Assembly (NCBI RefSeq): GCF_009177095.1 | Contig: NZ_AP021861.1 | Span: 1,904,501-1,968,500, forward strand | DNA length: 64,000 nucleotides | Source of the DNA: Lacipirellula parvula | GTDB taxonomy: Bacteria > Planctomycetota > Planctomycetia > Pirellulales > Lacipirellulaceae | Direction of reading: 5' to 3' | Shown: positions 50,505 to 56,435 of the stretch, piece after piece | Position numbering within the stretch: position 1 is the stretch's first letter | Layout of the letters: every line of letters begins with the position of its first letter | Program-made: the position numbers and the translations under genes | Notes under the pieces: model-generated | Seen by the model: only the letters and a program-made list of their open reading frames with translations | Databases searched by the model: none | Told to the model about the DNA's origin: nothing

Positions 50505-51770
50505 ATGGATCACGCTTACATCTCCAGTAACGCCACGATCTTGGCGGTGCTTACCGGCATCTGTGCGTTTTATTTTTGGTTGGAGAAGGCGACGCGCTGG
50601 CCGCTCTTCAACTATGTGCCGCCGCTGGTGTTCATCTATCTGACGCCGGTGATTTTGGCGAATAGCGGGAACGTGCTCACTCACTTTCGTGATCGCGGAG
50701 CAGAGACGCCGACGACTGCCGCCCCGCTCGCGGCGATTCCGAATGTGCTGCCAACTGAATCGCCGGCGTACGACGTGATCAACGATTATGCGCTGCCGAT
50801 GATGCTCGTACTGATGTTGCTGAACGTCGACGTCGCGGGGGCGGTGCGCGTCGTCGGCAAAGGGGTGGGCGTCATGCTCATTGGCGCGCTCGGCGTCGTG
50901 GTGGGCGCTGTGGTGGGTTACGCTTGCGTGAAGCAATGGTTGGGGCCCGATGCTTGGAAGGCCTATGCGGCGCTCACTGGGAGTTGGGTTGGCGGCACGG
51001 GTAACCTGGCCGCCGTCGCCGAGGCGACTGGCGCCAACGGCACGCAATTTGGATTGGCAGTACTTGCAGATACTGCCCTATTGCTCATTTGGTTGCCGGT
51101 GATGCTGGCCTCGAAGAAAATCGCCGAACCGTTCGCGCGGTTCGCGAAGGTCGACGCCGAGCGCGTCGCCCACCACGATGCGATGTCAGCGGCGACGCAA
51201 CTCGATGGCCGGCCGCCGAACTATCAAGACTTTCTGCTGCTGCTGTTCACCGCGTTCGCTGTGACGGCGTTCGCGCTCTGGTCGACGCAATCATTGACAG
51301 CGAAGTTCGCTGAGTACGACCGCGTTTGGCCAGTGCAATTCAGCGAGAGTACGGCTCGCATTTTACTGATTACCACGATCAGCATCGGTCTGTCGTTCAC
51401 GAGGTTGCGGCACGTACCGTCGAGCCGCCATTTAGGCATGGCGCTCGTGTTCATCTTTATGGCAAGAACCGGCGCCACCGCCGATCTCGCCCAAGCGGCC
51501 GATCAAGCCGTGCCGTTCTTGGTTGGCGCGACGATCTGCATCTTCATCCACGGCTTTTTCTGCCTCGCGGCGGCGAAGGTGCTGCGCGTCGATATCCACA
51601 CGGCGGCGATTGCGAGCGCCGCGAACGTTGGCGGCATTGCCACGGCGTCGTGCGTTGCGGCGCATCACAAGGAAAGCCTGATGCCGGCGGCGGTGCTACT
51701 GGCGCTGTTGGGCTACGCGATCGGCAACTACGCGGGGCTGTTGACCGCCGCGATCTGCGAGAGTTTGTAG
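50505..51770 (+). CDS. DUF819 family membrane protein
   Basis: 421 residues with about twelve hydrophobic segments. LFNYVPPLVFIYLTPVILAN, ALTGSWVGGTGNLAAVAEA and SAANVGGIATASCVAAHHKE match the DUF819 (YjcL-like) family of inner membrane proteins, whose substrate is unknown. The GTGN and NVGG repeats resemble two inverted halves of a transporter. It is divergent from tRNA-Leu and is the first chromosomal gene right of the island. A 108-base repeat follows its stop. Confidence 0.85.
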   Translation: MDHAYISSNATILAVLTGICAFYFWLEKATRWPLFNYVPPLVFIYLTPVILANSGNVLTHFRDRGAETPTTAAPLAAIPNVLPTESPAYDVINDYALPMMLVLMLLNVDVAGAVRVVGKGVGVMLIGALGVVVGAVVGYACVKQWLGPDAWKAYAALTGSWVGGTGNLAAVAEATGANGTQFGLAVLADTALLLIWLPVMLASKKIAEPFARFAKVDAERVAHHDAMSAATQLDGRPPNYQDFLLLLFTAFAVTAFALWSTQSLTAKFAEYDRVWPVQFSESTARILLITTISIGLSFTRLRHVPSSRHLGMALVFIFMARTGATADLAQAADQAVPFLVGATICIFIHGFFCLAAAKVLRVDIHTAAIASAANVGGIATASCVAAHHKESLMPAAVLLALLGYAIGNYAGLLTAAICESL

Positions 51771-51811: not shown

Positions 51812-51920
51812 AATGTTGTGGCTCCCTCCCCCTGGAGGGGAGGGCTGGGGAGGGGGGAATGAACCCGGGTACCCGCCGCCGTCACCCCTCCCTAACCCTC
51901 CCCCTCAAGGGGAGGGGACC
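51812..51920. repeat. Dispersed 108-bp palindromic repeat, copy 1
   Basis: Nearly identical to 56269-56376 (one extra A and one substitution). It is built of inverted C-rich and G-rich halves: CTCCCTCCCCCTGGAGGGGA and, at the other end, CCCTCCCCCTCAAGGGGAGG around ACCCGGGTACCC. It lies between the convergent ends of the DUF819 gene and leuA. It probably folds into a strong RNA hairpin on either strand. Confidence 0.75.
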
Positions 51921-51963: not shown

Positions 51964-53520
<1,557 letters not shown>

Positions 53521-53525
53521 GGCGG

Positions 53526-53640
53526 TAGGTCAGGCTTGTAGCCTGACGTTAGTGGTAGGTCAGGCTTTCAGCCTGACGGGCGTCACGTTGTGGAATGGAA
53601 ACCGTCGGTCACTGCTAGTCAGGCTAGAAAGCCTAACCTA
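53526..53640. repeat. Three short REP-like hairpins
   Basis: GTCAGGCTTGTAGCCTGAC (53529-53547), GTCAGGCTTTCAGCCTGAC (53559-53577) and GTCAGGCTAGAAAGCCTAAC (53618-53637) are related hairpins, two of them after TAGGT. They lie in the leuA leader, just upstream of its start. A similar unit TAGGTTGGGCTTTCAGCCC occurs at 60163. They look like a dispersed short repeat family. Confidence 0.6.
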
Positions 53641-53643
53641 CTA

Positions 53644-53678
53644 ACAAAAAAACCCCGAAGCCGGGCGGCTTCAGGGTT
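53644..53678 (-). terminator. leuA attenuator terminator
   Basis: On the minus strand, AACCCTGAAGCCG and CGGCTTCGGGGTT form a 13-bp stem (one U-G) with a 2-base loop, followed by seven Ts. It lies between the leader peptide and leuA, where it must be read through to express leuA. Confidence 0.9.
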
Positions 53679-53733
53679 CTGGCAATTCTCACGATCAAGA
53701 TGCAGACGAACCCTAAGCCTTGCCCTCGGCAAG
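53673..53733 (-). promoter_or_regulatory. leuA attenuator: pause hairpin and antiterminator
   Basis: CTTGCCGAGGGCAAG (53733-53719) is a 6-bp stem with a 3-base loop at the 3' end of the leader peptide gene. AGGGTTC (53714-53708) can pair with GAACCCT (53679-53673) in the 5' arm of the terminator and so prevent it. These are the pause and antiterminator partners expected of ribosome-mediated attenuation. Confidence 0.75.
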
Positions 53734-53772
53734 TAGCAGCAGTAGCAGGCTGTTTAGGTTCAGAGCTGGCAT
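53713..53772 (-). CDS. leuL: Leucine leader peptide (19 aa)
   Basis: ATG CCA GCT CTG and so on gives MPALNLNSLLLLLLAEGKA and then TAG. Eight of 19 codons are Leu (CTG, CTA and CTT), six in a row, which is far above chance for a random short frame. Low leucyl-tRNA would stall the ribosome on this run. The ribosome binding site is weak (AAAAAGC). It begins 252 bases before leuA. I infer ribosome-mediated attenuation as in enterobacterial leu operons. Confidence 0.85.
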   Translation of the reverse strand: MPALNLNSLLLLLLAEGKA

Positions 53773-53899
53773 CGGATGCTTTTTCGGTCTTTGGCGTGGG
53801 CAGACGGTGTCTGCCTGCAATCTGTTCTAGCTGACCCGATATCGAGGGTCAAGGTTCGCCGGCGTCGCCGTAAAGCGTTTGATTAAGGGAAAACACCGC

Positions 53900-54142
53900 C
53901 TACTGGGCGATGAAAAAGCGGGCGTCGCTCCCCCCGGGGCCGATCCCGAAGCGAACTCGCTTCGCACAGCGGGGGCAATGGCCGACGTATTCGGTCCCCT
54001 CGCGATTGGCGTACACGCGGGAGTAAACGTCGCAGCAGGCGAACTGCACGCCCAGGTACCGCGACGACTCGCGGCGATTGTCGGCCGTCATTGTGGAGGG
54101 CATCGGAACTGGACTGCAGAGATCGAGATGTTGGCCGGTCAT
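53900..54142 (-). CDS. Small zinc-ribbon-like planctomycete protein
   Basis: 80 residues; GAGG lies 8 bases before the ATG. The C-terminal 50 residues are RYLGVQFACCDVYSRVYANR followed by HCPRCAKRVRFGIGPGG. ACC and CPRC give four Cys for a zinc ribbon. This is a conserved small protein type of planctomycetes, of unknown role. The longer frame to 54353 is not favoured. Confidence 0.75.
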   Translation of the reverse strand: MTGQHLDLCSPVPMPSTMTADNRRESSRYLGVQFACCDVYSRVYANREGTEYVGHCPRCAKRVRFGIGPGGSDARFFIAQ

Positions 54143-54473
54143 GGCAACGCCTCATCAATAAAGTGGAAAGACTCGTTTCGTAATATTTGAATCGCAACTC
54201 CAAGCGAGCCGCAGGCCTCGTGCCTGCGGTCCTCCAAGTCGCGCCAACCGCCATTTCACGTCCCAAATCGTACGTCGTCCGCGGTAACGTCGCAGCGTCA
54301 ATTTTTCCGCTATCCCCGCTATCGCCCGCACAGTCGCTACGCGCCGCTAGCACTCGCCCGCTCCGCCTTGCGGCGCCAGCGTGGTTTGCCTACTATCCGC
54401 CGCCCGCGTCGCTAAATTTGCCCCCGCTTCCCAGCGACATCGCTCTCCGCGCCTACCCAATCGCCCAGCCGAT
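54143..54473. promoter_or_regulatory. Divergent intergenic region
   Basis: 331 bases between a zinc-ribbon gene (minus) and a conserved hypothetical gene (plus). Frames run through part of it, but the reading only becomes family-like at 54474. It should hold promoters for both sides. No palindrome stands out. Confidence 0.4.
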
Positions 54474-56268: not shown

Positions 56269-56376
56269 AATGTTGTGGCTCCCTCCCCCTGGAGGGGAGG
56301 GCTGGGGAGGGGGGATGAACCCGGGTACCCGCTGCCGTCACCCCTCCCTAACCCTCCCCCTCAAGGGGAGGGGACC
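56269..56376. repeat. Dispersed 108-bp palindromic repeat, copy 2
   Basis: Matches 51812-51920 over its whole length with one substitution and one missing A. Like copy 1, it lies between convergent genes, here the lipoprotein gene and the thermonuclease gene. Confidence 0.75.
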
Positions 56377-56435
56377 AGATGGTTTAATTTTCTCAGTGAT
56401 TCCGGCGGCGTTTCCAATGCCGGGACGTTCGCACG

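Follow-up and report, generated by a model that had tools for sequence, protein, structure and literature searches.

Introduction

Most of what is known about ribosome-mediated attenuation comes from proteobacteria, actinobacteria and some firmicutes, and the control of amino-acid synthesis in planctomycetes is, to our knowledge, little described. A locus in the genome of Lacipirellula parvula raises the question of whether such attenuation also sets the expression of leuA in this phylum. Within the window (the whole stretch of 64,000 nucleotides analysed, positions 1,904,501 to 1,968,500 of NZ_AP021861.1), a sequence-only reading had noted, upstream of leuA, a 19-codon leader with eight Leu codons, six of them consecutive, a segment at the leader end able to pair with the 5' arm of a 13-bp terminator, and a T run, and had recognized in this layout the logic of an attenuator. 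All of these parts were confirmed, the terminator stem comprising 13-14 pairs by way of counting. Based on the order of the parts, their conservation, pairing potential and covariation, the codon bias of the leader and a promoter-like motif, all of which are properties of the sequence, the locus very probably encodes a ribosome-mediated transcription attenuator that would adjust leuA expression to the availability of charged leucyl-tRNA.

Results

Constituents of the leuA locus

All parts of the locus lie on the minus strand of the window, in the order predicted promoter (53852-53824), leader ORF, segment 2, terminator together with its T run (53680-53646) and leuA (Table 1). The terminator stem comprises 14 pairs, 7 of them G-C, with a folding energy of -23.2 kcal/mol, and its T run lies ~125 nt from leuA, the product of which scores 730.4 bits against NCBIfam TIGR00973 (cut-off 598.7). 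Behind leuA, the next long ORF (50505-51770) is encoded on the opposite strand, and leuBCD are therefore not directly downstream. Inspection by eye revealed no clear Shine-Dalgarno sequence ahead of the leader ATG.

Table 1. Features of the leuA leader region and of the cimA counterpart, with the basis of each assignment.
Feature	Position	Strand	Description	Basis
Predicted -35 element	53847..53852	-	TTGACC	Conserved motif in f1 loci
Predicted -10 element	53824..53829	-	TAGAAC, 17 nt from -35	Conserved motif in f1 loci
Leader ORF	53713..53772	-	MPALNLNSLLLLLLAEGKA, ATG...TAG, 19 codons, 8 Leu, 6 consecutive	Sequence
Candidate segment 1	53754..53761	-	GAACCTAA, inside leader ORF	Pairing potential with segment 2
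Small hairpin	53719..53733	-	CTTGCC-GAG-GGCAAG, between Leu run and segment 2	Sequence
Segment 2	53708..53719	-	GGCTTAGGGTTC, antiterminator 5' strand, TAG stop inside	Complementarity to terminator 5' arm, covariation
Intrinsic terminator stem-loop	53649..53680	-	Segments 3 and 4	Sequence, fold, covariation
Terminator T run	53646..53652	-		Sequence
leuA	51964..53520	-	2-isopropylmalate synthase, 518 aa, presumed regulated gene	NCBIfam TIGR00973
cimA (L002)	G000:C1:1487145-1488680		Outside window; Ile-rich leader ...GIVAISIIIREVRP and similar terminator upstream	

To place the leader among other terminator-like sites, both strands of the window were searched with a general rule, in which any of 16 amino acids had to occur at least five times in 10 residues, with a terminator of -14 kcal/mol or lower 35-125 nt past the stop. 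Matches were found at 6 of 45 such sites, among which the leuA leader was the sole Leu match and the densest, with 7 residues vs 5 or 6 in the others. A fixed-stem terminator pattern gave a single match in the whole 6.92 Mb genome; the terminator upstream of cimA (see below) escaped this pattern owing to its different stem, and the pattern is thus not a census.

Two kinds of repeat were also observed in this part of the window. Between the terminator and leuA (53525-53577), a 23-base palindromic repeat, GTAGGTCAGGCT-NNN-AGCCTGAC, is present in two exact copies, and a diverged copy lies nearby; the repeat is REP-like, occurs in ten genome copies at one mismatch or fewer, and may influence the leuA 5' region. 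Near-identical G+C-rich palindromic stretches, CTCCCTCCCCCTGGAGGGGAGGG...CCCCTCAAGGGGAGGGGA, were noted by eye outside long ORFs at ~51820-51915 and 56272-56377, and probably represent a dispersed repeat.

Recurrence upstream of leuA across the Planctomycetota

Relatives, and more widely the class and phylum, were searched for leuA orthologues, and the DNA upstream was scanned for an ORF with at least five Leu in 10 residues followed, 35-125 nt past its stop, by a terminator of -14 kcal/mol or lower, the thresholds (including that of four Ile in eight for the cimA searches below) having been fixed once initial results were known. The resulting 200 regions represent one per genome, except for G039, which is counted twice; regions left out, on grounds that include partial match, lack of a clear orthologue and contig end, were those of G001, G012, G018, G118, G127, G169, G183, G195, G227, G229, G233, G244, G261, G263, G267, G276, G280, G284, G285, G297, G300 and G309:C6. 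A Leu leader and terminator were identified in 130 of the 200 regions, and in 0/200 on the reverse strand. Using working labels for family-level groups, positives comprised 31/32 in f1, 18/26 in other Pirellulales, 12/14 in f15, 25/27 in f21, 16/30 in f91 (which we take to be Isosphaeraceae), 16/26 in f92 (probably Gemmataceae) and 6/6 in f93-95, falling to 6/39 in other classes. All four named planctomycete isolates among 80 contig records, Thalassoglobus neptunius, Rhodopirellula sallentina, Stieleria tagensis and Roseiconus nitratireducens, possess a Leu leader and terminator.

The remaining 70 of the 200 regions failed the rule, including 33/39 from other classes. Several f91 negatives carry either a leader with fewer Leu residues or the same hairpin followed by too little T, and a Leu-rich leader is absent from the 700 nt upstream of leuA in, for example, G041, G056, G058, G037 and G264, as well as in G222 and G243 of f91.

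Further observations were made on individual records. The assignment of f92 to Gemmataceae draws on L370, a record titled Gemmataceae whose LeuA is 85-87% identical to f92. Against it stands L384, titled Isosphaera sp., whose LeuA is likewise closest to f92; one of these two titles is probably outdated or mistaken. In f15, the leuA orthologues of G250, G246 and G216 each contain one TAG within the matched frame. Outside the phylum, L420 and L423 (Dyella) and L408 (a Verrucomicrobia record) have a Leu-rich leader and then a hairpin before leuA, that of L408 being weaker at -12.3 kcal/mol, which suggests that leuA attenuation may be broader.

A conserved motif upstream of the leader

The sequence-only reading expected the promoter upstream of the leader, and there the predicted TTGACC-N17-TAGAAC is found. 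The pattern TTGAC-N16-20-TA---(T/C) occurs upstream of the leader in 27/31 f1 loci and in 0/31 on the reverse strand, the 27 including the four sequences of the genus alignment from which it was drawn. Based on this motif, transcription would be expected to start near 53817. In the spacer of f1 relatives, GTC is often seen a few bases 5' of the -10 element and could be a promoter part or a regulator site.

Covariation of the terminator and antiterminator

Over the 130 loci, segment 2 pairs with its own terminator arm at a mean of -14.4 kcal/mol, vs -12.0 kcal/mol with the arms of other loci (best of 5000 permutations, -12.8), an excess that is partly due to between-family relatedness. Within groups, the matched test of segments 2 and 3 gave p values of 0.0002 for f21, 0.0016 for both f15 and other Pirellulales, 0.004 for f93-95 and 0.011 for both f91 and other classes, and was borderline inside f1 (p 0.053). 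In f92, segment 2 often lies farther upstream, inside the leader; there the p value was 0.38 in the standard interval and fell to 0.0004 once the interval was widened to reach into the leader, a widening chosen afterwards.

Compensatory change was examined in an alignment (A1) of 78 of 105 sequences, the 105 excluding f92 and other classes. In A1, the covariation counts of which lean towards pairing because the other 27 sequences were excluded by hand after the pairings had been seen, the terminator carries double changes in 11/13 pairs and 105 changed cells, vs 17.7 +/- 5.1 in shuffled alignments (0/500), and the antiterminator carries 49 cells changed on both sides vs 23.3 +/- 4.3 (0/500), with a covariation score of 0.160 vs 0.133 +/- 0.008 (1/500). 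Antiterminator pairs with double changes (7 vs 6.4) and pair types (21 vs 20.7) showed no excess over shuffles in A1. The case of the sequence-only reading turned on relatives retaining the Leu run and the pairings, and in both respects it held up, the run recurring in 130 of 200 leuA regions and compensating changes being present in terminator and antiterminator alike.

Evidence for a segment 1:2 pairing is weaker than for the other parts of the device. The candidate segment 1, GAACCTAA, pairs with TTAGGGTTC in the minimum free energy fold of the whole leader, and matched pairing overall is -15.5 vs -13.6 (best of 3000 permutations, -14.5); by group, f15 (p 0.88), f93-95 (0.17) and other Pirellulales (0.20) show no advantage over chance and f92 (0.055) is borderline, leaving four of eight groups short of significance. 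A further element of the sequence-only reading, the CTTGCC-GGCAAG hairpin, is present at 53733-53719. As a competing 1:2 element it was rejected: it stands beside the antiterminator in one fold, and a local hairpin at this site is not generally conserved, 6/30 f1 loci folding like the best 5% of shuffles.

Predicted folding states and the proposed switch

The RNA of the window was folded up to the terminator 5' arm with the ribosomal A site placed at codons 9-14 and the 12 nt ahead masked. In these folds, a ribosome placed in the Leu run leaves 10.8-11.9 expected segment 2:3 pairs, and one placed at the stop leaves 0. Over families, 127/130 loci (31+18+12+24+6+15+6+15) have more than one additional pair in the stalled state relative to the stop state. 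The fold without a ribosome also yields the antiterminator (11.5 pairs), indicating that the textbook 1:2 protector is weak here; in these models the stop-bound ribosome, and not a strong protector hairpin, seems to maintain the off state. The leader stop is TAG in 92/130 loci and falls inside segment 2 in 81/130, and any count of segment 2 lying under a stop-bound ribosome is largely built in by the search interval.

The locus presents the constituents by which attenuators are recognized, namely an ORF of pathway codons before the gene and downstream of a predicted promoter, an intrinsic terminator between ORF and gene, and an antiterminator that shares the terminator 5' arm and, in the folds, is masked when a ribosome occupies the stop. 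From these we infer the following sequence of transcription start, leader translation, stalling, termination or read-through, and leucine response. RNA polymerase would start ~45 nt 5' of the leader ORF, with a ribosome trailing it. With charged tRNA-Leu abundant, the ribosome would reach the UAG within segment 2 and hide that segment, such that the terminator would form and transcription would end before leuA. With charged tRNA-Leu low, the ribosome would stall in the Leu run, which is rich in the rare codon CTA, leaving segment 2 free to pair with the terminator 5' arm and the polymerase to continue into leuA.

Codon usage and control genes

CTA accounts for 22.9% of the 827 Leu codons in leader runs, 2.0% of the 606 Leu codons among codons 1-50 of leuA, and 1.4% of 3004 Leu codons in 82 leuA loci covered over at least 400 residues, a few of which repeat a genome. 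Control regions upstream of other biosynthetic genes in 27 genomes of relatives (27 ilvB, 29 hisG and 30 trpE, the latter being 30 of 52 PF04715 places), with strand orientation enforced for all, yielded no terminator-linked leader for Leu, Ile, Val or His (0/86); a weak Trp criterion (2 in 6) was matched in 4/27 ilvB loci.

A candidate isoleucine counterpart upstream of cimA

The second LeuA-like enzyme of the genome was identified as citramalate synthase (TIGR00977, 661.2 bits, cut-off 450), and its gene, cimA, is preceded by an Ile-rich leader and a terminator similar to that of leuA (Table 1). Among 41 cimA regions (40 of ~50 located places plus the genome of the window), 19 possess an Ile leader, none a Leu leader, and none a match on the reverse strand; conversely, Ile leaders were found upstream of leuA in 0/200 regions. 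Matched pairing in the 19 cimA loci was better than permuted (p 0.033), and of 29 further cimA loci over the class (29 of 40 places), 10 pass the rule, with G049 and G051 belonging to both sets. From these features of the sequence, the cimA leader is a candidate isoleucine attenuator. Given that the amino acid of the leader follows the pathway of the gene while the layout stays constant, this pair of loci provides the strongest argument for ribosome-mediated sensing.

Discussion

Alternative explanations of the leuA leader

The logic of ribosome-mediated attenuation proposed in the sequence-only reading is supported by the recurrence of the layout in 130 of 200 regions, by the covarying stems and by the folds, from which regulation is inferred. 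The same parts could in principle have unrelated functions, with the terminator ending an unrelated small transcript, the Leu ORF encoding a hydrophobic peptide with a function of its own, and leuA being transcribed from a promoter farther downstream. Runs of leucine are also found in signal and membrane peptides, and the ~125 nt between T run and leuA in the window would fit a separate promoter. We nonetheless consider this very unlikely. By eye, the leader peptides share little besides Leu density, and the leader of the paralogue cimA has Ile in place of Leu. The terminator arm covaries with the leader stop region. In 39/130 loci, no more than 60 nt (minimum 12 nt) separate the T run from the aligned start of leuA, indicating that leuA messages probably cross the terminator. 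A generic sigma-70-like scan of 53400-54200 found no site, although the scan demands a T at the last -10 position and so missed the conserved motif upstream of the leader as well.

A slimmer chance is that the leader acts on translation or on Rho-dependent termination, as considered for actinobacterial leaders, and not through the choice of an intrinsic terminator. Like the planctomycete leader, the actinobacterial LEU element consists of a Leu-run ORF before leuA, and, in the parts of its description consulted here (PMC1262725), it forms a pseudoknot in which Leu codons pair with the leuA Shine-Dalgarno site, and mutations of the Streptomyces coelicolor leader do not fit classical attenuation. 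Those parts of the description mention no terminator (PMC1262725), whereas an intrinsic terminator is present in the planctomycete device, a strong one with a T run and a covarying stem being situated behind the leader in 130 of 200 regions, which argues against this reading.

Least likely of all is a translation-free switch in the leader RNA, be it a T-box or a leucine-binding riboswitch: the alternative terminator and antiterminator helices, and the antiterminator reached in the fold without a ribosome, would suit one, but no T-box or other regulatory Rfam family reaches its gathering score in the window, the three matches at 53500-53900 at E up to 5 lie far under their cut-offs and include no T-box or leucine leader, the Leu run within the genus stays Leu while its codon letters vary, and Ile replaces Leu on cimA.

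Relationship to known attenuators

Ribosome-mediated attenuation thus being the preferred reading, the closest classical comparison is the leu leader of Enterobacteriaceae, leuL (Rfam RF00512), which in E. coli encodes a Leu-run peptide with rare CUA codons. The planctomycete leader resembles leuL in its Leu run, its rare CUA codons, its terminator/antiterminator choice and its position before leuA, and differs from it in having the stop inside segment 2 (81/130 loci), a weak 1:2 protector and no leuBCD directly behind leuA. A search of 53500-53900 with the Rfam Leu_leader model (RF00512) gave no match at E up to 5. Attenuators responding to Ile and Val are known on ilv operons, and the leader of cimA is like these in placing Ile codons before an Ile-pathway gene, the target here being cimA.

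In the portions of the Shewanella report available to us (PMC2659441), which also name ilvG, the leuA attenuator described, like that of planctomycetes, comprises a Leu-rich leader peptide, a terminator, an antiterminator and compensatory changes. The emphasis in those portions falls on an anti-antiterminator stem (PMC2659441), whereas that stem is the least supported part of the planctomycete device. Leader ORFs upstream of genes have been counted in Planctomycetes in a study the consulted text of which concerns short ORF-to-gene distance and reinitiation (PMC4833913); its main text contains none of the terms leuA, Pirellul or Rhodopirellula. Judged by titles, the open-access literature yielded no report of an attenuator or leader for citramalate synthase, and open-access titles and abstract openings, a scope with subscription papers mostly outside it, yielded none of a planctomycete leucine or isoleucine attenuator. 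We would therefore describe a classical mechanism in a phylum for which no report was found, with the stop within segment 2, the weak protector and the Ile version on cimA as its local features.

Implications for planctomycete biology

Beyond the leuA locus itself, we lean, with modest confidence, towards the view that the Leu/leuA and Ile/cimA leaders form a widespread planctomycete pair which works through ribosomes close behind the polymerase, and that some transcripts in probable Gemmataceae are translated while being made. In the consulted parts of the articles that cite Gottshall 2014 (PMC6857541, PMC5287468), transcription and translation are described as segregated in Gemmata obscuriglobus, and in one of them the nucleus-like compartment is called a matter of debate (PMC6857541). 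The occurrence of the leuA device in probable Gemmataceae therefore bears on transcription-translation coupling in a group where segregation has been both reported and disputed. The conserved Planctomycetia version of the device, missed by Rfam leader models, would extend ribosome-mediated attenuation to this phylum. Together with its cimA counterpart, the leuA leader may provide planctomycete genetics with parts that respond to leucine and isoleucine, and it would allow transcription-translation coupling to be tested with a simple reporter in bacteria whose cell plan is debated.
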